Shown here in pieces: positions 8,700-33,498 of a stretch of 64,000 nt of DNA. Source of the DNA: Phycisphaerae bacterium (GTDB taxonomy: Bacteria; Planctomycetota; Phycisphaerae; Sedimentisphaerales; Anaerobacaceae). The stretch is taken from NCBI GenBank assembly GCA_028714855.1, contig JAQTLP010000008.1:62001-126000 (forward strand), in the 5' to 3' direction. Position numbers and translations under genes: made by a program. The notes under the pieces are model-generated. The model was not told the DNA's origin, did no database searches, and saw only the letters and a list, made by a program, of their open reading frames with translations. Within the stretch, counting starts at the first letter, position 1, and the number at the start of each line of letters is the position of its first letter.

Positions 8700-9302
8700 C
8701 TCAAAATCTGAGTCTTATCGCCAATTTTCCAAACATCGAGAACCCCGAAGCAATTGGCAAAAGATTTAATTGTCAATTGCGACTGCCTCGCCAGCATGCG
8801 TTTGGCGACACCCCCTTGGCCGTAGCTTAATGCGAGAGAGTTATAGCACCTGCTTGTGCCGCCGTAGGTTTTGATAAAACTTCAATCAAAAGCGCAGGTA
8901 GTTGTGTACCTAAAACCCATTTTTCTAAAAATTTTTTACTCCTTCTCTCACATCGAGTTACGAGAGACGAGCGACAAGCGACAATTAATTTTTTCGCATC
9001 AATCGCGCAAGTTTCTCCAACAGTAGAGAAACAGTCTATTTTGAAAGGAATTACTAATGAGTGGTTACAAATAATCAATTAATATTGTTTATAATTTACT
9101 TCTCTTCTTTCTCTGTGGCTGAAATTTCGGCAGCGGAGATTTTCTGTTTATAGCGGAAAAATCAATCAAAATGAATAAATTATGCAAAACAAACCCAATT
9201 TCCAAAACCCCCAAAATGAGTATAACTTTAGCAATAACAATGACTAACAACTACGAACCACGAACAATGAACTATCAAAAACAAACCCAAACAAAGCCAA
9301 TT
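8700..9302. other. 603-base gap with decayed and repetitive sequence
   Basis: No convincing gene is seen. On the minus strand two frames give protein-like stretches (one ending AAQAGAITLSH, the next frame reading VAKRMLARQSQLTIKSFANC), which suggests a frameshifted remnant of an unknown gene. Around 8950-8990 is a run of near-repeated words (ACGAGAGACGAGCGACAAGC). The right end holds the low-complexity repeat listed separately. Confidence 0.4.
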
Positions 9303-11992: not shown

Positions 11993-12705
11993 TGCTCTTC
12001 CCCCTCGATGCGGTCTACCACACCATCCAGCATATGAAGCCGCTGCCTTGAGTATGCAGCAACATCCGCCTCATGCGTAACCATAATTATCGTCTTGCCC
12101 TGCTCATTAAGCTCGGTCAGCAGCGCAAGAATCTCTTTTCCGGTCGCCGTATCAAGATTGCCTGTTGGTTCATCCGCAAAAATAATCTGTGGGTCGTTCG
12201 CCAGAGCCCTCGCTACCGCTACCCGCTGCATCTGACCGCCCGATAGCTCCGAAGGACGATGATTCAGCCGTTCTCCCAGCCCGACTTTCCCGGCAAGTTC
12301 TCTCGCTCGCTCGGCGCTGTGGTGTGCCTCCCATCCCAAATAATAAAGGGGAAGCTCGATATTTCTCTGCACCGACAGCTGCGGTATGAGATTGAAACTC
12401 TGAAAAATAAAGCCAAGATGCCGAAGCCGCATCTCGCTGAGCGAATCATCTTCAAGAGTGCTTACGTCATGTCCTTCGAGGATATATCGACCCGAGCTTA
12501 AACGGTCTAAGCAGCCAAGTATGTTCATCATCGTGCTTTTGCCTGAGCCGCTCGGCCCCATTATAGCCCAGAAACTGCCTCTCTTGAACGACAGCGTCAC
12601 ACCAGCAAGGGCCTTTACTTCGCTGCTGCCCATCTGATAAATCTTCCGGGCATCTTCCAGCTTGATTATCTGATTATCAGAATTAGACTGCGCCTGACTT
12701 ATCAT
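11989..12705 (-). CDS. ABC transporter ATPase, MacB/LolD type
   Basis: A 238-residue ATPase. Walker A is GPSGSGKST, the Q-loop is in FIFQSFNLIPQL, the signature is LSGGQMQRVAVARAL, Walker B is IIFADEPTGNLD and the switch His is in MVTHE. This is the LolD/MacB/FtsE subfamily that energises mechanotransducing permeases. It overlaps the adaptor gene upstream and the permease gene downstream by four bases each, so the three form one tightly coupled operon. Confidence 0.93.
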   Translation of the reverse strand: MISQAQSNSDNQIIKLEDARKIYQMGSSEVKALAGVTLSFKRGSFWAIMGPSGSGKSTMMNILGCLDRLSSGRYILEGHDVSTLEDDSLSEMRLRHLGFIFQSFNLIPQLSVQRNIELPLYYLGWEAHHSAERARELAGKVGLGERLNHRPSELSGGQMQRVAVARALANDPQIIFADEPTGNLDTATGKEILALLTELNEQGKTIIMVTHEADVAAYSRQRLHMLDGVVDRIEGEEQ

Positions 12706-21588: not shown

Positions 21589-21783
21589 TCAAAGCTTCCA
21601 CGCTTTTGCGAAGGCCCTGAAGCTGCGATCGTAAGTTTTTTCGACGTTATCAGGGAAACAGCAGCCGGGCAATTCTCTGGATGATAAATGATAGCTCAAA
21701 CATTCGCAGCATATACCTTTTCTGCTGCAGCCAGGATATGAACAGTTGCAGTCTTTGAGATTTTTTTCTTTTTTGCATTCCAT
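21589..21783 (-). CDS. Small Cys-rich protein (DUF6485-like)
   Basis: A 64-residue protein with eight cysteines in a conserved array: MECKKEKNLKDCNCSYPGC, then RKGICCECLSYH, then ELPGCCFPDNVEKTYDRS. I recognise the pattern as a small family of unknown function, common in anaerobes (DUF6485-like). The cysteines could bind zinc or an Fe-S centre. AAGGAG lies upstream of the ATG. It lies just outside the left 30-bp direct repeat at 21838. Confidence 0.8.
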   Translation of the reverse strand: MECKKEKNLKDCNCSYPGCSRKGICCECLSYHLSSRELPGCCFPDNVEKTYDRSFRAFAKAWKL

Positions 21784-21837: not shown

Positions 21838-21867
21838 ATTGTAGTTAAAAATCAGACGAAATGCAAT
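21838..21867. repeat. Left copy of 30-bp direct repeat bounding a membrane cassette
   Basis: It matches 23285-23314 at 28 of 30 positions; both differences are A/G. It starts ATTGTAGTTAAAA and ends CGAAATGCAAT. The right copy covers the 3' end of the GTPase gene. Confidence 0.8.
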
Positions 21868-22009
21868 ACTTGCCGGGATTACATTTGTTATTTAAGTTTG
21901 ACTCAACTCTTTACAGAATGTAATATCTCTTGGTTATTATGGGCAAGCATTTGAAATCGGAGATTTGAACTCCAAGGTGTGGTTATTTACATTTTTTAAG
22001 GAATGAGTT

Positions 22010-22453
22010 ATGCGATTATGGCTTTTATGTGGTTTGCTGGCATCTTTGTGCTGGGGAACTTATGTAGTCTTAAACAAGATAGTTACCAGTCCAAAGTATT
22101 GTGGAATCCCGAGTTCTACAAGTGCTTTGTTGATGGGAATAGGAGCCCTTACTACCTTGATTATTTACTTCTTCCTCGCAAACGGGACATTCCAGCACTG
22201 TAAACCAAGTCTTTGTATACTTGCTATTCTTCCCGGTTGTATTTGGGCCCTTGGAATGTGTGCCGTACTTTTCGCAATCAGCAAGGAAGCCCCTATCTCA
22301 AAGCTGGCGATTGTTTACAACACGAACACCTTGGTGGCAGTGGTTTTAGGGGTTGTTTTTCTTAAAGAGGCACTATGCGGCGCCGAATTGTTCAGGGTAG
22401 TAATCGGTGGCTTGCTTGTGACAGTTGGCATAATATTAGCAAGCTGGAATTAG
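22010..22453 (+). CDS. Half-size EamA/DMT-type transporter protein
   Basis: A 147-residue membrane protein with about five helices, one EamA repeat instead of the usual two (about 300 residues). The N-terminal LCGLLASLCWGTYVVLNKI and the C-terminal TLVAVVLGVVFLKEALCG…VIGGLLVTVGIIL are typical of the fold. It may work as a dimer exporting small molecules; the substrate is unknown. AAGGAATG is upstream of the ATG. Its stop overlaps the stop of the opposite-strand gene by four bases. Both genes lie between 30-bp direct repeats. Confidence 0.8.
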   Translation: MRLWLLCGLLASLCWGTYVVLNKIVTSPKYCGIPSSTSALLMGIGALTTLIIYFFLANGTFQHCKPSLCILAILPGCIWALGMCAVLFAISKEAPISKLAIVYNTNTLVAVVLGVVFLKEALCGAELFRVVIGGLLVTVGIILASWN

Positions 22454-23235
22454 AAAGGCCAGTCTGTAATACGGTGGCGTTTTTGAGGAATTCGCAGTTT
22501 AATTGGATCAGCCTCATCCCATAGATTCTCATAATATTGAACGTTTACGTTATATCCATCTGTAGTGCGCCCTTGCTTAATTAGGGGATACATTTGTCCA
22601 TCCATCCCGCGGCTTCCATTACTACTTGGATAAGGATTAGCAAGTATTACCCCATCTTTGTCCCTGTGGTTCAACATCAGCAAACTTCTATCAGGATATT
22701 TTTCATGCAAACGTATCTCAATGTTTCCTCCGAAAATACCAGCCTTCAAGGTGATATCCATCAGGATGTACAGAGACGCATATAATTCAGCTGCGATTCT
22801 TCCCACGGTGTCGTCCTCACGGTTACAGCGTTCCTCAAAAACAGGTTTTCTTGGATCCAACAGCAATACTCGCAATCTCCCTTCTTTTACGAGAAGATTC
22901 ACTAGTAGTTCTCGACCCTGATGTAGTGGTCCTGTTGCATTAATCCCAAGTATTGATACCTCTGCCTTGTGTCCTGATTCTTGGATTTTACTTATCTCAT
23001 CATCCAAAATCTGAAGTTGGTAGGAAATTTTACGGGGCGCCTGTTCAACCTTTAAGTCAAGAATCTCTCTAATTTGCTTCTGCAATCCAATAATTGTTGT
23101 ATCCTTTTGTTGTATTGCCTCTTTATTTTTTCGTATCTCACGAAGATTCAAGATGTACTTTATAACTGCGCCTACTACTGTACCAACGCATAAAGCAGCA
23201 GCAGCTATTATGGAACTAAGTGCTTGGTCACTCAT
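22450..23235 (-). CDS. Membrane-anchored coiled-coil protein with possible degenerate PLD-like domain (DUF5919-like)
   Basis: A 261-residue protein. One N-terminal membrane helix (about 8-28) is followed by a charged coiled coil (about 30-65). A globular domain covers about residues 85-240. That domain has ILGINATGPL, LRVLLLDPRKPVFEERC and EIRLHEKYPDRSLLML…GVILANPYPS. This resembles the strand pattern of phospholipase-D-like folds, but no HxK motif is visible, so catalysis is unlikely. The assignment to DUF5919 is from memory. It is tail-to-tail with the EamA-like gene inside the repeat-bounded cassette. Function unknown. Confidence 0.6.
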   Translation of the reverse strand: MSDQALSSIIAAAALCVGTVVGAVIKYILNLREIRKNKEAIQQKDTTIIGLQKQIREILDLKVEQAPRKISYQLQILDDEISKIQESGHKAEVSILGINATGPLHQGRELLVNLLVKEGRLRVLLLDPRKPVFEERCNREDDTVGRIAAELYASLYILMDITLKAGIFGGNIEIRLHEKYPDRSLLMLNHRDKDGVILANPYPSSNGSRGMDGQMYPLIKQGRTTDGYNVNVQYYENLWDEADPIKLRIPQKRHRITDWPF

Positions 23236-23284
23236 TTTTGTCTCCTTTCTCTACTCCTATCTGGGAAATTCACACAGCTATCTA

Positions 23285-23314
23285 ATTGTAGTTAAAAGTC
23301 AGGCGAAATGCAAT
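23285..23314. repeat. Right copy of 30-bp direct repeat, overlapping the GTPase 3' end
   Basis: It matches 21838-21867 at 28 of 30 positions. The last five codons and stop of the GTPase gene (ELHFA-stop) lie within and just beside it. Confidence 0.8.
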
Positions 23315-24282
23315 TCGATAATGTCTTTGTCGCTGAGGATGTGGTTTTTCTGGACGTTTTGGCCTTGATAGACGTCCGTGCCCCAGATTTTTGCGAATTT
23401 CAATTTATCCGCCAACTCTCTGTGGATGGCAGTAGCCAGGTCTGAAACGTTCGAGCCAACCGGCAGTGTGAATGGATCTGCCATATCAGGTTTTTTGCCC
23501 GGCGGCTTGGCATAGATGCGGATGATGCCTAATAAATGGAATAATAAAGCGGGGAGCTTGTCGAGCCCCTTGGCGGTCTCGGTAGAAATTTCCACAAATT
23601 CGAACTGGTATTTGCAGGCTTGCTTGAGGGCTTCAAGCGAGCCTGGTTTGGCGATATCGCACTTTGTGCAGATGCAGAGGGCCTTTTTGCCGAGGACGTT
23701 GCCGAGACCATCTGCGGCGGGCGTCTGTTCATCAATAAGCAGGTTTTTTGATTCGAGGAAATCCAGGCAGATTCGCATTTGCTCGGTCACGTCGGCGGAC
23801 AGGTCAATGACGATAGCAATCAAATCACAGTTGCGGTATGTCCCCACCTGGCCGGGGGCAATGTGGTCGGCGGTGATAGGCGGCATATCGACGAGCTGAA
23901 TCTGGACGTCCTCGAACATCATCATTCCTGGGACGGGCATTGCTGTCGCAAACGGAAACTCGGCTATATGGACCTTCGCATTAGTCAAAGCGGCAACGAT
24001 GGAGCTTTTGCCGCAGTTAGGCGTCCCTATGAGAACGATTTGGCCCACGCCGTTTCTCTGGACGTGGAAGATATCGACGTGTTTGCCTTTTGCTTTGCCG
24101 ACGGGGGCTTCTTTTAAGGCGCTGAGTTTCCTGCGAAGATCAGCTTTGAGGTGGTCGGTACCCTTGTGCTTGGGCATAACCGCCAGCATCTGCTCCAGCG
24201 CAATGATTTTCTCCTCATTGGTAGTCGCTTCGCGGTACCATTGCTCAGCCTTGTAATAATCTGGCGTCAGGTTCGCTGGCAT
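23299..24282 (-). CDS. TGS-domain GTPase (Obg/DRG-like)
   Basis: A 327-residue GTPase. The N-terminal ~75 residues are helical. G1 is GTPNCGKSS, followed by FPFATAMPVPGMM, which is the DRG-type switch I. The G3 position reads DMPP where DxPG is usual, G4 is TKCD, and a C-terminal TGS domain ends in VQKNHILSDKDIIELHFA. Such GTPases act in ribosome-related control or stress. It begins three bases after leuB and is probably the last gene of the leu operon. Its 3' end is shared with the right 30-bp repeat. Confidence 0.87.
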   Translation of the reverse strand: MPANLTPDYYKAEQWYREATTNEEKIIALEQMLAVMPKHKGTDHLKADLRRKLSALKEAPVGKAKGKHVDIFHVQRNGVGQIVLIGTPNCGKSSIVAALTNAKVHIAEFPFATAMPVPGMMMFEDVQIQLVDMPPITADHIAPGQVGTYRNCDLIAIVIDLSADVTEQMRICLDFLESKNLLIDEQTPAADGLGNVLGKKALCICTKCDIAKPGSLEALKQACKYQFEFVEISTETAKGLDKLPALLFHLLGIIRIYAKPPGKKPDMADPFTLPVGSNVSDLATAIHRELADKLKFAKIWGTDVYQGQNVQKNHILSDKDIIELHFA

Positions 24283-28829: not shown

Positions 28830-29381
28830 TTGTTTTCTCCAAAACTAACGCTGTTCGGGGCAAATTTACCCCAAACGCCGTTAAATTGCTACAAATTTAT
28901 CAAAAGCAAGGGTTTACAAATATAGATTTTTTGTGGAAAAAAGGGTTTATTGCGCCTAACGGCGCAAAAGGAGGGCGCTAAGGCACAGAATTGCCTTTTG
29001 CGGAGAATGAATTGTGTAAGTTCTACTCATAAGCCCAGTATTATACAGAAGAAGAGAAACTTTTGCAACAACTATTAAATATTTTTGCGGAATTTAGGAG
29101 GTTTGGGCAATGTGGGATAGCACCAAACGCGCAAGTTCGCGTTTTGGAATGGTAGAAAATGGTAAAAAGTTGTAAAAAATCGCTAAAAATGCGCGTAAAA
29201 GTGAGAGAAAATGCGCAAAAATGGTTGAAAATGTTGGATGATTTTTTACCCCCCTGCGCATTTGATCGCGCGGAGCGAAGAAGAATTTTTGTTGCTCGGA
29301 GACGCAGGTTTTGTATAATAAAGAGTCAGTTCCAGTTACCAAGATTTGGCCTATCAGGAGGTTTTGCAGGAGGGCAGAAAA
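28830..29381. other. Gap between leuA and the GLUG gene
   Basis: No gene is seen in 552 bases. It holds a perfect TTGCGCC-TAAC-GGCGCAA palindrome (28950-28967), a low-complexity stretch with repeated ATGG(T)(A/T)GAAAATGG words (about 29150-29245), and the promoter of the GLUG gene. I could not fix a leuA promoter or leader on the minus strand. Confidence 0.5.
29292..29319 (+). promoter_or_regulatory. Predicted promoter of the GLUG-protein gene
   Basis: TTGCTC (29292-29297) and a perfect TATAAT (29314-29319) are 16 bases apart, about 60 bases upstream of the chosen start codon. Confidence 0.6.
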
Positions 29382-30972: not shown

Positions 30973-30981
30973 CAAGTCCTT

Positions 30982-31015
30982 CTTGCAATTCGACAATTGT
31001 GCGCTAAAATTGGGG
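30982..31015. repeat. 34-bp direct repeat, left copy (before S41 gene)
   Basis: It matches 32409-32442 at 32 of 34 positions, with core CGACAATTGTGCGCTAAAAT. It contains TTGCAA and TAAAAT 15 bases apart and ends two bases before the S41 start codon, so it may be the promoter of a nearly leaderless mRNA. Confidence 0.75.
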
Positions 31016-31016
31016 T

Positions 31017-32384
31017 ATGGAAAAACCACTCAATAAAATCATTGCGGTGATTATACTTTTATTTTCTTTGGAGGCAGGGGTATCGGGCGCGCCACCGAAA
31101 ATCATCAATACGGTGCCTGAAAATGGTTCACAGGATGTGAACTCCAATCTGCGACAGATTCGCATTGTCTTCGACCAAGATATGGACCAAAACGGCTATT
31201 CGATATGCGGAGGCGGAGAGAATTATCCTAAAACAATCGGAAACCCGCGATGGGTTAACAAACGCACGATTGTAATGCGGGTGAAGCTTATTCCAAACCA
31301 TGATTATCAGCTAAGCATCAACTGCCCAAACTTCAAGAATTTCAAGAATACCAAAGGTGAATCGGCCGAGCCGTATCCGATTGAATTTAAGACCAGCTCA
31401 GATAAAGCAGGAGCCAAAGCTGAGAATCTCAGCGTCGCAGAAAACGCAGAGGCGACAGAAGAGCTGCGCAAAGCTATCGATGAGAAGTACTCGTATCGCG
31501 ACCTTCGTAAGTTTGATTGGGACAGGCTGTTCGACAGGTACAGCCGGGCAATGAAGGTCGCCAAAACGCCGGAAGCATTTGCGGAGGCAGCAGCGGAGAT
31601 GCTTGCCAATGCGGGAGATGCGCACATCTGGGTTAAGATTGGCGAAAAAAATGCTAAGGGGAAATTCAGGAGGAGTGTTACTGAAAATTACAATCTAAAA
31701 ATTTTGGAAAAAACAGTTCGCGGGTGGCGGAAGCGCAGCGATGCGGTATTTACCGGGCAATTCAACGACGGGATCGGTTATATTCTTATTGACAGCTGGT
31801 CCCGTGAACGTAAGGAGGCGCTCGAGGAGGCCTATAAGGCGATAGAGAAGTTTGCCGATGCACCGGGACTTATAATCGATGTTCGCAGCAACAGCGGTGG
31901 TGCTGAGCCGCTTGCGGAGGAATTTGCGGGCTGTTTTATCGACGAGCCGAAGGTTTATGCCCGGCATGTGTATCGTAATGTTCGTGAGCCGGGAGGATTT
32001 ACCAAGCCGAATAATCGCATTCTGGAGCCGAGCGAGGGGCGGCCGAAGTATCGCGGCAAGATAGCCGTGCTTACGGGGCCGGTGAATATGAGCAGCTGCG
32101 AGGCGTTTCTTTTGATGATGAAGCAGGTTTCTGGCTGTAAACTTATTGGCGAGAAATCTTACGGCAGTTCGGGTAATCCCAAGCCGACCGAACTGGGCAA
32201 CGGTGTGACGGTATTTTTGCCATCGTGGAAAGCTATGCGGCCTGACGGGACGTGCTTTGAGGGCGAGGGTATTGCTCCGGATATTCTTATTAAAACGACG
32301 AAGACAGAACTTAACAGCCGGGATGCTGTTCTCGAAGCTGCGTTGAAGTGGCTGCGTGAGTCCCAAATGACCCCTGCGAGGTGA
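31017..32384 (+). CDS. Exported S41-family peptidase with Ig-like N-terminal domain
   Basis: A 455-residue protein with a signal peptide (about 1-25). A Big_5-type Ig-like domain spans about 26-125 (INTVPENGSQDVNSNLRQI…FDQDMD). A helical region follows, then an S41 tail-specific peptidase domain from about 245. Domain motifs are GYILIDSWSRE, LIIDVRSNSGGAEPLAEEF, TGPVNMSSCEAFLLMM with the likely nucleophile Ser, and IGEKSYGSSGNP. There is no obvious PDZ domain. It likely acts in the periplasm or on the surface. No ribosome site is visible, and a possible promoter abuts the ATG. It is flanked by 34-bp direct repeats. Confidence 0.85.
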   Translation: MEKPLNKIIAVIILLFSLEAGVSGAPPKIINTVPENGSQDVNSNLRQIRIVFDQDMDQNGYSICGGGENYPKTIGNPRWVNKRTIVMRVKLIPNHDYQLSINCPNFKNFKNTKGESAEPYPIEFKTSSDKAGAKAENLSVAENAEATEELRKAIDEKYSYRDLRKFDWDRLFDRYSRAMKVAKTPEAFAEAAAEMLANAGDAHIWVKIGEKNAKGKFRRSVTENYNLKILEKTVRGWRKRSDAVFTGQFNDGIGYILIDSWSRERKEALEEAYKAIEKFADAPGLIIDVRSNSGGAEPLAEEFAGCFIDEPKVYARHVYRNVREPGGFTKPNNRILEPSEGRPKYRGKIAVLTGPVNMSSCEAFLLMMKQVSGCKLIGEKSYGSSGNPKPTELGNGVTVFLPSWKAMRPDGTCFEGEGIAPDILIKTTKTELNSRDAVLEAALKWLRESQMTPAR

Positions 32385-32408
32385 TGGCGAGGCTAACCAT
32401 AAATCCCA

Positions 32409-32442
32409 CTTGCAATCCGACAATTGTGCGCTAAAATGGGGG
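32409..32442. repeat. 34-bp direct repeat, right copy (after S41 gene)
   Basis: Second copy of the repeat at 30982-31015 (32/34). It is followed by low-complexity TTAGTTATTAGTG-like words and a CCCTGCCATT/AATGGCAGGG hairpin (32507-32528) before the methyltransferase gene. Confidence 0.75.
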
Positions 32443-32550
32443 AAAATCATTAGTTATTAGTGCTTAGTCGTGAGTGGTTAGTTATTGGTATTTAGTGAAT
32501 AAAACCCTGCCATTAAAATGGCAGGGCTAACCAAGTAAAAAATATTCAAT

Positions 32551-33498
32551 ATGAACGCACTGCTTAACAAGATTATCTGCGGGGATTGTATAGAGATACT
32601 CGGCGAGGTCGGCGAGCCGTTTGCGGATTTGATATTCGCGGATCCGCCTTTTAATATCGGGTATAAATACGACAAATACTACGACAAGGTCAAAAGCAAA
32701 AATTACATCGCATGGACGAAAGAGTGGCTGGGCGTTTGCAAAAAGGTCCTGAAGCCATCTGGCTCGTTTTATATAGCCATCGGCGATGAATATGCGGCAA
32801 ACGTGAAGGTGATAGCGGATGAGCTTGGGCTTTTTATGCGGAACTGGATAATATGGCATTACACATTCGGCCAGCAGACGAAGATGAAATTTGCCCGCGC
32901 GCACACGCATATTTTTTACTTTGTAAACGATAAGAAGAATTTTACCTTTAACGAACACGCGGTTCGCGTGCCTTCGGACAGGCAACTAATTTACGGAGAC
33001 AAGCGCGCCAATCCGAAAGGCAAGATGCCGGACGATGTCTGGGGGGAATTCTCGCGCGTATGCGGGACATTCAAGGAACGGGAAGAATGGCATCCGTGCC
33101 AGATGCCGGAGAGTCTGCTGAAAAGAATCATAGCGGTAAGCAGCAATACAGGAGATTGCGTGCTGGACCCATTCAGCGGGTCAGGGACAACTTTGGCAGC
33201 GGCGAAACAATTAGGCAGAAATTACGCCGGCGTGGAAATATCCGAAGAGTATGTTGAAAAGACAAAAAAACGTTTAGCTCAATTAGGAAAGCAACATTGC
33301 GGGAATGAGTCTCTGAAACCAACGGAGATGGCTGAATTTAAACGGCTTGTCAGTGAGACGACGATACCTGTCAGGGAGATTGCCGGCGACAAAAACCTTC
33401 TGGTTCTATTTACAAATCAATTTTCCGTGAGGATGAACAACGGCAGGCGCTATAAGACAGAAGAGATAGCGACGGTTTTAAGGGATTCGGCCGATTGA
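32551..33498 (+). CDS. Orphan DNA adenine methyltransferase (beta class)
   Basis: A 315-residue DNA methyltransferase. Motif IV, ADPPFNIGYKYD (about 30-40), comes before motif I, DPFSGSGTTLAAAKQLGRNYAGVEI (about 210-235). This is the beta-class order seen in CcrM and M.HinfI. DPPF indicates N6-adenine methylation. About 65 C-terminal residues after the domain are not recognised. No restriction gene is adjacent, so it is probably a solitary, perhaps regulatory, enzyme. The target site cannot be read from sequence. Confidence 0.85.
   Translation: MNALLNKIICGDCIEILGEVGEPFADLIFADPPFNIGYKYDKYYDKVKSKNYIAWTKEWLGVCKKVLKPSGSFYIAIGDEYAANVKVIADELGLFMRNWIIWHYTFGQQTKMKFARAHTHIFYFVNDKKNFTFNEHAVRVPSDRQLIYGDKRANPKGKMPDDVWGEFSRVCGTFKEREEWHPCQMPESLLKRIIAVSSNTGDCVLDPFSGSGTTLAAAKQLGRNYAGVEISEEYVEKTKKRLAQLGKQHCGNESLKPTEMAEFKRLVSETTIPVREIAGDKNLLVLFTNQFSVRMNNGRRYKTEEIATVLRDSAD

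Follow-up and report, generated by a model that had tools for sequence, protein, structure and literature searches.

A 1,417-bp segment carrying two genes for predicted membrane proteins lies between a TGS GTPase gene and a DUF6485 gene in this genome, with a 30-bp direct repeat at either end. Our preferred reading, to which we give about two chances in three, is that it is a small additive insertion, that a resident promoter-like repeat was duplicated with it, and that the DNA was joined by illegitimate recombination without a recombinase.

The insert and its empty sites

The stretch analysed, hereafter the window, comprises 64,000 nucleotides (contig C8, 62001-126000). The features of the locus are, in window coordinates:

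21589-21783, minus strand: DUF6485 gene, 64 aa (PF20095, 36.8 bits against a cut-off of 24); resident, downstream of the insertion
21838-21867, minus strand: left repeat copy, promoter-like TTGCAT-17-TACAAT, with TACAAT approximately 54 nt upstream of the DUF6485 start
21868-23284, no strand: inserted segment, 1,417 bp, absent from the empty site of G002
22010-22453, plus strand: gene for an EamA/DMT-type membrane protein, single-domain, 147 aa (PF00892, 34.0 bits against a cut-off of 28.2)
22450-23235, minus strand: gene for a near-orphan 261-aa protein with an N-terminal membrane helix, a coiled coil and an alpha/beta C-terminal half
23285-23314, minus strand: right repeat copy, with the last codons of the TGS gene and the promoter-like sequence, approximately 50 nt upstream of the start of the 261-aa gene
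23299-24282, minus strand: MMR_HSR1+TGS GTPase gene (PF01926 and PF02824); resident, upstream of the insertion, with orthologues in relatives

The two repeat copies agree at 28 of 30 positions and are spaced 1,447 bp apart, a unit made up of the 1,417-bp insert and one repeat copy. An earlier note, made from the letters of the DNA, had described these repeats around approximately 1.4 kb with an EamA-like gene and a gene for a membrane-anchored coiled-coil protein, arranged tail to tail, and the ORFs and the PF00892 match confirm this arrangement. As the note had also seen, the right copy takes in the end of the TGS gene, covering its last codons (LHFA and the stop). The DUF6485 gene, which the note does not mention, sits beyond the left copy. 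With up to 3 mismatches allowed, the pair are the sole two matches in the 2.31-Mb assembly, and the reversed repeat pattern, used as a control on the same assembly, gave 0 matches. Block-shuffled controls (approximately 826 kb) likewise yielded 0 repeat pairs at an identity of at least 25/28 and a spacing of 400 to 5,000 bp. The repeat is thus not a common dispersed element, a possibility that the note had raised against its own reading. Searching the insert by ORF and by family detected no transposase or integrase, which bears out the note on the latter point, and no terminal inverted repeats were found. The G+C content of the insert is 41.2%, compared to a mean of 47.5% for 1,417-bp stretches, placing it at about the 5th percentile.

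The note had proposed looking in related genomes for an empty site with one repeat copy, and such a site is present in the congener G002, whose TGS protein is 91% identical. There, 71 bp lie between the TGS gene and DUF6485, and the DNA is approximately 93-95% identical to the window on both sides, up to the repeat. Adjacency of the TGS and DUF6485 genes is seen in G002, G005, G013, G036, G024, G016, G031, G033, and G043; empty sites span many genera of the family and order, and the cargo is found in one genome only. The G002 site, together with this widespread adjacency, indicates that the insert is additive and lineage-specific. It was gained in this lineage or, at the earliest, before G000 and G002 split, in which case G002 has since lost it. 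Conserved cargo at the locus, which the note had named as evidence against its view, can be rejected, since relatives lack the cargo genes at this place. An anchor-swap model with donor-derived flanks is not favoured, as the flanks do not become more divergent from G002 on approaching the repeat.

In G003, G018, G020, G034, and G017, a different gene occupies the TGS-DUF6485 junction; from the start of its protein, we take it to resemble GH51 arabinofuranosidase. No repeat of the TGS end is detectable at these five cargo-bearing junctions, and the junction is therefore variable, but not via one repeated event. Differing genes, often GH51-arabinofuranosidase-like, were seen at the TGS-DUF6485 junctions L038, L040, L041, L044, L045, and L050 of relatives. 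G003 has a degenerate TTCGGCTGGATTTTGCTACAAT ahead of DUF6485, and G031 carries a second fragment of the TGS C-terminus (residues 286-327; L047:755-880), approximately 10 kb from the full gene and on the opposite strand.

EamA is a large transporter clan. The closest relative of the 147-aa protein, at 38% identity, is encoded by a 146-aa ORF between leuA and leuC in G001, which is itself an insertion relative to the window and around which no direct repeat was detected. The G001 leu operon (L061:5500-9900) has several extra small genes around leuA, leuC, and leuD that are missing there in the window (EamA-type, 258-aa, and three short ORFs of 121-133 aa). For the 261-aa protein, no family match above cut-off was obtained in Pfam, NCBIfam, or PADLOC, and a link to defence was rejected on the last of these. 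It has a single distant relative, in G018 (26% identical), which has no adjoining EamA gene, and a two-sequence profile search found none in 392 genomes sampled from the phylum. The AF2 model of the protein (pLDDT 43.5) is of too low quality for use; the order of predicted strands and helices might, at a guess, recall half a phospholipase-D-like domain. In the genome, viral, phage, and plasmid collections searched, the cargo genes have no close relative and do not occur together elsewhere. The note had suggested an undescribed accessory module and a search for other genomes with both genes; as that search returned none, the module is not established. Our guess is that the cargo could be a small EamA/DMT-type transporter with a membrane-anchored accessory protein.

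A promoter-like sequence at the end of the TGS gene

The minus-strand reading of the repeat is A-TTGCAT-17 nt-TACAAT. The first hexamer at the same time encodes Leu-His within the conserved IELHF stretch with which the TGS protein closes, so that the -35 half of the repeat is also constrained by coding, and TACAAT lies just beyond the TGS stop codon, 50-54 nt upstream of the next start codon. The bases between the Leu-His codon pair and the -10 vary among relatives. Of 28 relatives, which are not independent of one another, 11 have a -10 hexamer, defined as a match of at least 5/6 to TATAAT, at a distance of 16-17 nt from TTGCAY, compared to 1.2% and 3.2% in controls. A consensus promoter scanner did not call the repeat a promoter because TTGCAT matches the sigma-70 -35 consensus TTGACA in only 3 of 6 positions. 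As these sequence data are best read, the repeat is a putative promoter that serves the downstream gene and overlaps the 3' end of the TGS gene.

The left copy has the same -10 as the single copy in G002. When both copies are compared with G002, each has kept the inferred ancestral base at one of the two variable sites and changed at the other, which fits a duplicated resident sequence and not an imported attachment site. Homology between the copies ends at the -10, and the leaders beyond are unrelated; a longer homology extending through the leader was tested and is not significant.

Further units on the same contig

The window holds a second case, flanked by repeats unrelated to those of the first:

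30974-31056, plus strand: left copy, comprising the promoter-like repeat (30974-31015) and approximately 13 codons; now the start of the S41 gene
31017-32384, plus strand: inserted S41 peptidase gene, 455 aa (PF03572)
32401-32442, plus strand: right copy, upstream of the N6/N4 DNA methyltransferase gene at 32551-33498 (PF01555)

Here, the 42-bp repeat (30974-31015 and 32401-32442) is 88% identical between copies, with a spacing of 1,427. In seven relatives, the 4-kb loci show no S41 gene beside the methyltransferase, and G001 has a single copy of the repeat, directly before the methyltransferase start. The 5' end of the S41 gene (approximately 13 codons) resembles that of the G001 methyltransferase with a score reached by 0 of 2,000 shuffles, and that of the methyltransferase in its own genome with p = 0.001. 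S41 relatives elsewhere align mostly only from about residue 5-15. It follows from the related first codons and this alignment start that the duplication took in the promoter, the start site, and the first codons, to which the S41 gene is now fused. Approximately 110 bp now separate the right copy from the methyltransferase, and these are partly dispersed repeat. The dispersed intergenic repeat runs from about 32440 to 32550 (approximately 30 bp matched) and is also present on contigs C6 and C2.

A third case lies outside the window, at C8 131026-131220 and 132571-132765, where a 195-bp repeat (94%; spacing 1,545) flanks an inverted gene of 411 aa with a CBM_4_9 domain. This repeat carries the promoter and 5' end of the downstream gene, presumably NAD(P)HX-dehydratase-like. 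G001 again has a single copy, and the left copy in the window's genome retains the ancestral upstream flank. The three loci thus share one layout, promoter-insert-promoter-gene, with repeats that are unrelated in sequence and length. In cases 2 and 3, the repeats (approximately 80 and 195 bp) extend into the 5' coding end of the downstream gene; the promoter duplication at the first locus is less complete.

Approximately 1.23 Mb of the 2.31 Mb were surveyed, with no other clear case, and all three lie on one contig, an unexpected clustering. A candidate for a fourth (C3 94278-94430/95336-95496) was rejected as the CheY-like gene between its repeats is present in relatives. The repeats themselves are an intergenic, structured-looking sequence of approximately 150 bp around that gene, conserved in relatives and with no Rfam match above the gathering score. 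C6 3289/4464 was rejected as a dispersed repeat; several ORFs share a dispersed, coding-like repeat (KVRENAQK...FLPPCAFD; 29159-29300 in the window, C6 3279-3344 and 4464-4530). Before pilus genes on C2 (PilM-like and a pilin-like operon), a leader of approximately 262 bp is repeated (8765-9027 and 12180-12441), which could be a further promoter duplication or the paralogous leader of a paralogous pilus cluster.

Routes of joining and what they imply

On the reading that we prefer, a foreign 1,417-bp segment with two convergent membrane-protein genes would have entered the short gap between the TGS and DUF6485 genes, and the 30-bp resident sequence, the downstream gene's promoter overlapping the TGS 3' end, would have ended up on both sides. 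We infer that the joining was recombinase-free with target duplication; a staggered break could, for example, have captured the DNA and been filled in, or the strand could have switched via short homology. Duplication of the promoter may have made the event tolerable, since the DUF6485 gene would keep its promoter, and the TGS-side copy, with TACAAT approximately 50 nt before the start and a good ribosome site, could express the 261-aa gene. Selection would then retain those events in which the downstream gene keeps its promoter. The repeats may later permit precise loss by slippage.

The earlier note had read the repeats as what site-specific integration at a gene end leaves behind. Insertion is upheld by the empty site in G002; the gene-end, site-specific part is not supported, the repeat behaving as a duplicated resident promoter. 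That part would survive if a recombinase had acted in trans at the end of the TGS gene on an element stripped to attL and attR, as in a cis-mobilizable element. The insertion geometry is indeed perfect for this, with one copy at a gene 3' end, an empty site in a congener, and 30 bp being a plausible core length. However, the only tyrosine recombinases found genome-wide were two XerC/XerD-like proteins (serine recombinases were outside the search), and the repeats of the first two cases match E. coli dif at best at 12-13 of 28 positions, which speaks, if weakly, against a Xer-dependent element (IMEX or pdif module), as the host's own dif may differ from this reference. The 30-bp repeat has no match in 2.9 million viral contigs and does not represent attL/attR of an identified integrase family. 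Neither it nor its core is shared with other elements: the repeats of the neighbouring insertions differ from it in length and are unrelated to it, and no ends are common to the inserts. The duplicated sequence is, moreover, a conserved resident promoter-like site, and the other relatives with cargo at the junction lack a TGS-end repeat. Cis-mobilizable elements and integrase-less islands have their origin in ICE/IME att sites, for which the integrase is known. The insert resembles them in having cargo between direct repeats, one of them at a gene 3' end, and no integrase; it differs in that there is no att family, no integrase-bearing relative, and unrelated repeats nearby. Given the unrelated repeats, the lack of shared ends or inverted repeats, and the XerC/XerD-like recombinases as the only ones found, a fixed site-specific recombinase is unlikely, and we consider integration in trans improbable.

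Slightly less probable again is a Campbell-type single crossover with circular DNA that already carried a diverged promoter copy, repeat length then being the length of the homology. This would yield the same promoter-insert-promoter-gene layout with variable repeat lengths and permit a divergence of 6-12% between copies from the outset. However, 30 bp is a very short homology, and the donor circle would need the same gene end, whereas no plasmid or phage in the collections searched has either cargo gene. At the first locus, each copy is also one site away from the inferred ancestor, which leaves no donor-like copy.

A bolder version of the preferred reading, which we regard as a long shot, is that the lineage acquires genes by a route directed at promoters or the 5' ends of genes, the three independent units of 1.4-1.5 kb being its products. 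DNA would land just downstream of a resident promoter, with or without the first codons, and this would be duplicated, so that old and new genes stay expressed.

Precise deletion is promoted by short direct repeats and is common at such loci (PMC2884548, PMC5426353), which would allow for an old segment lost by recombination between the repeats in G002 and the other relatives. This is very unlikely, as the empty sites would then be deletions in many genera of the family and order, with the cargo left in one genome, and parsimony favours one gain. An assembly artefact or chimera is barely credible: the judgement rests on an incomplete assembly of 19 contigs, but each junction falls within a 146-kb contig, the length of the repeats is below that of the words assemblers normally use, and neither resident flank is disrupted.

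As an additive insertion between duplicated resident sequences, the segment is fairly ordinary small genome variation, of a known kind with a promoter-duplication twist. Being absent from the locus in relatives and having short, non-dispersed direct repeats at both ends, it qualifies as a variable segment. Among the small variable segments of three bacterial species, 10-18% have direct repeats (mostly <30 bp) on either side (PMC2884548), and illegitimate recombination has been proposed for them (Touzain et al. 2010, PMC2884548). The insert shares with these the short presence/absence polymorphism, the direct repeat of approximately 30 bp, the lack of a recombinase, and the empty sites. It differs in that the repeat coincides with a resident promoter-like sequence, that two neighbouring cases reach 5' coding sequence, and that the variation is between species of a genus and not between strains. 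The recombinase-less H47 genomic island of Escherichia coli, whose repeats recombine independently of RecA (PMC5426353), is likewise flanked by direct repeats and encodes no recombinase. Unlike the insert, which is known from sequence, H47 measures 13 kb, has long imperfect repeats, and has had its excision shown experimentally.

The locus shows how a foreign gene pair can be added between conserved genes and the gene downstream still be spared silencing, by a probable duplication of its promoter along with the insertion. It also cautions against taking every pair of short direct repeats at a gene end for attachment sites. The S41 case cleanly illustrates how an acquired gene can come to lie behind a resident promoter, start codon, and first codons. 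Most worth following is that duplications of a promoter or 5' end recur on one contig. If the bias towards promoters is general, it would amount to a testable route of gene gain in a little-studied bacterial group.
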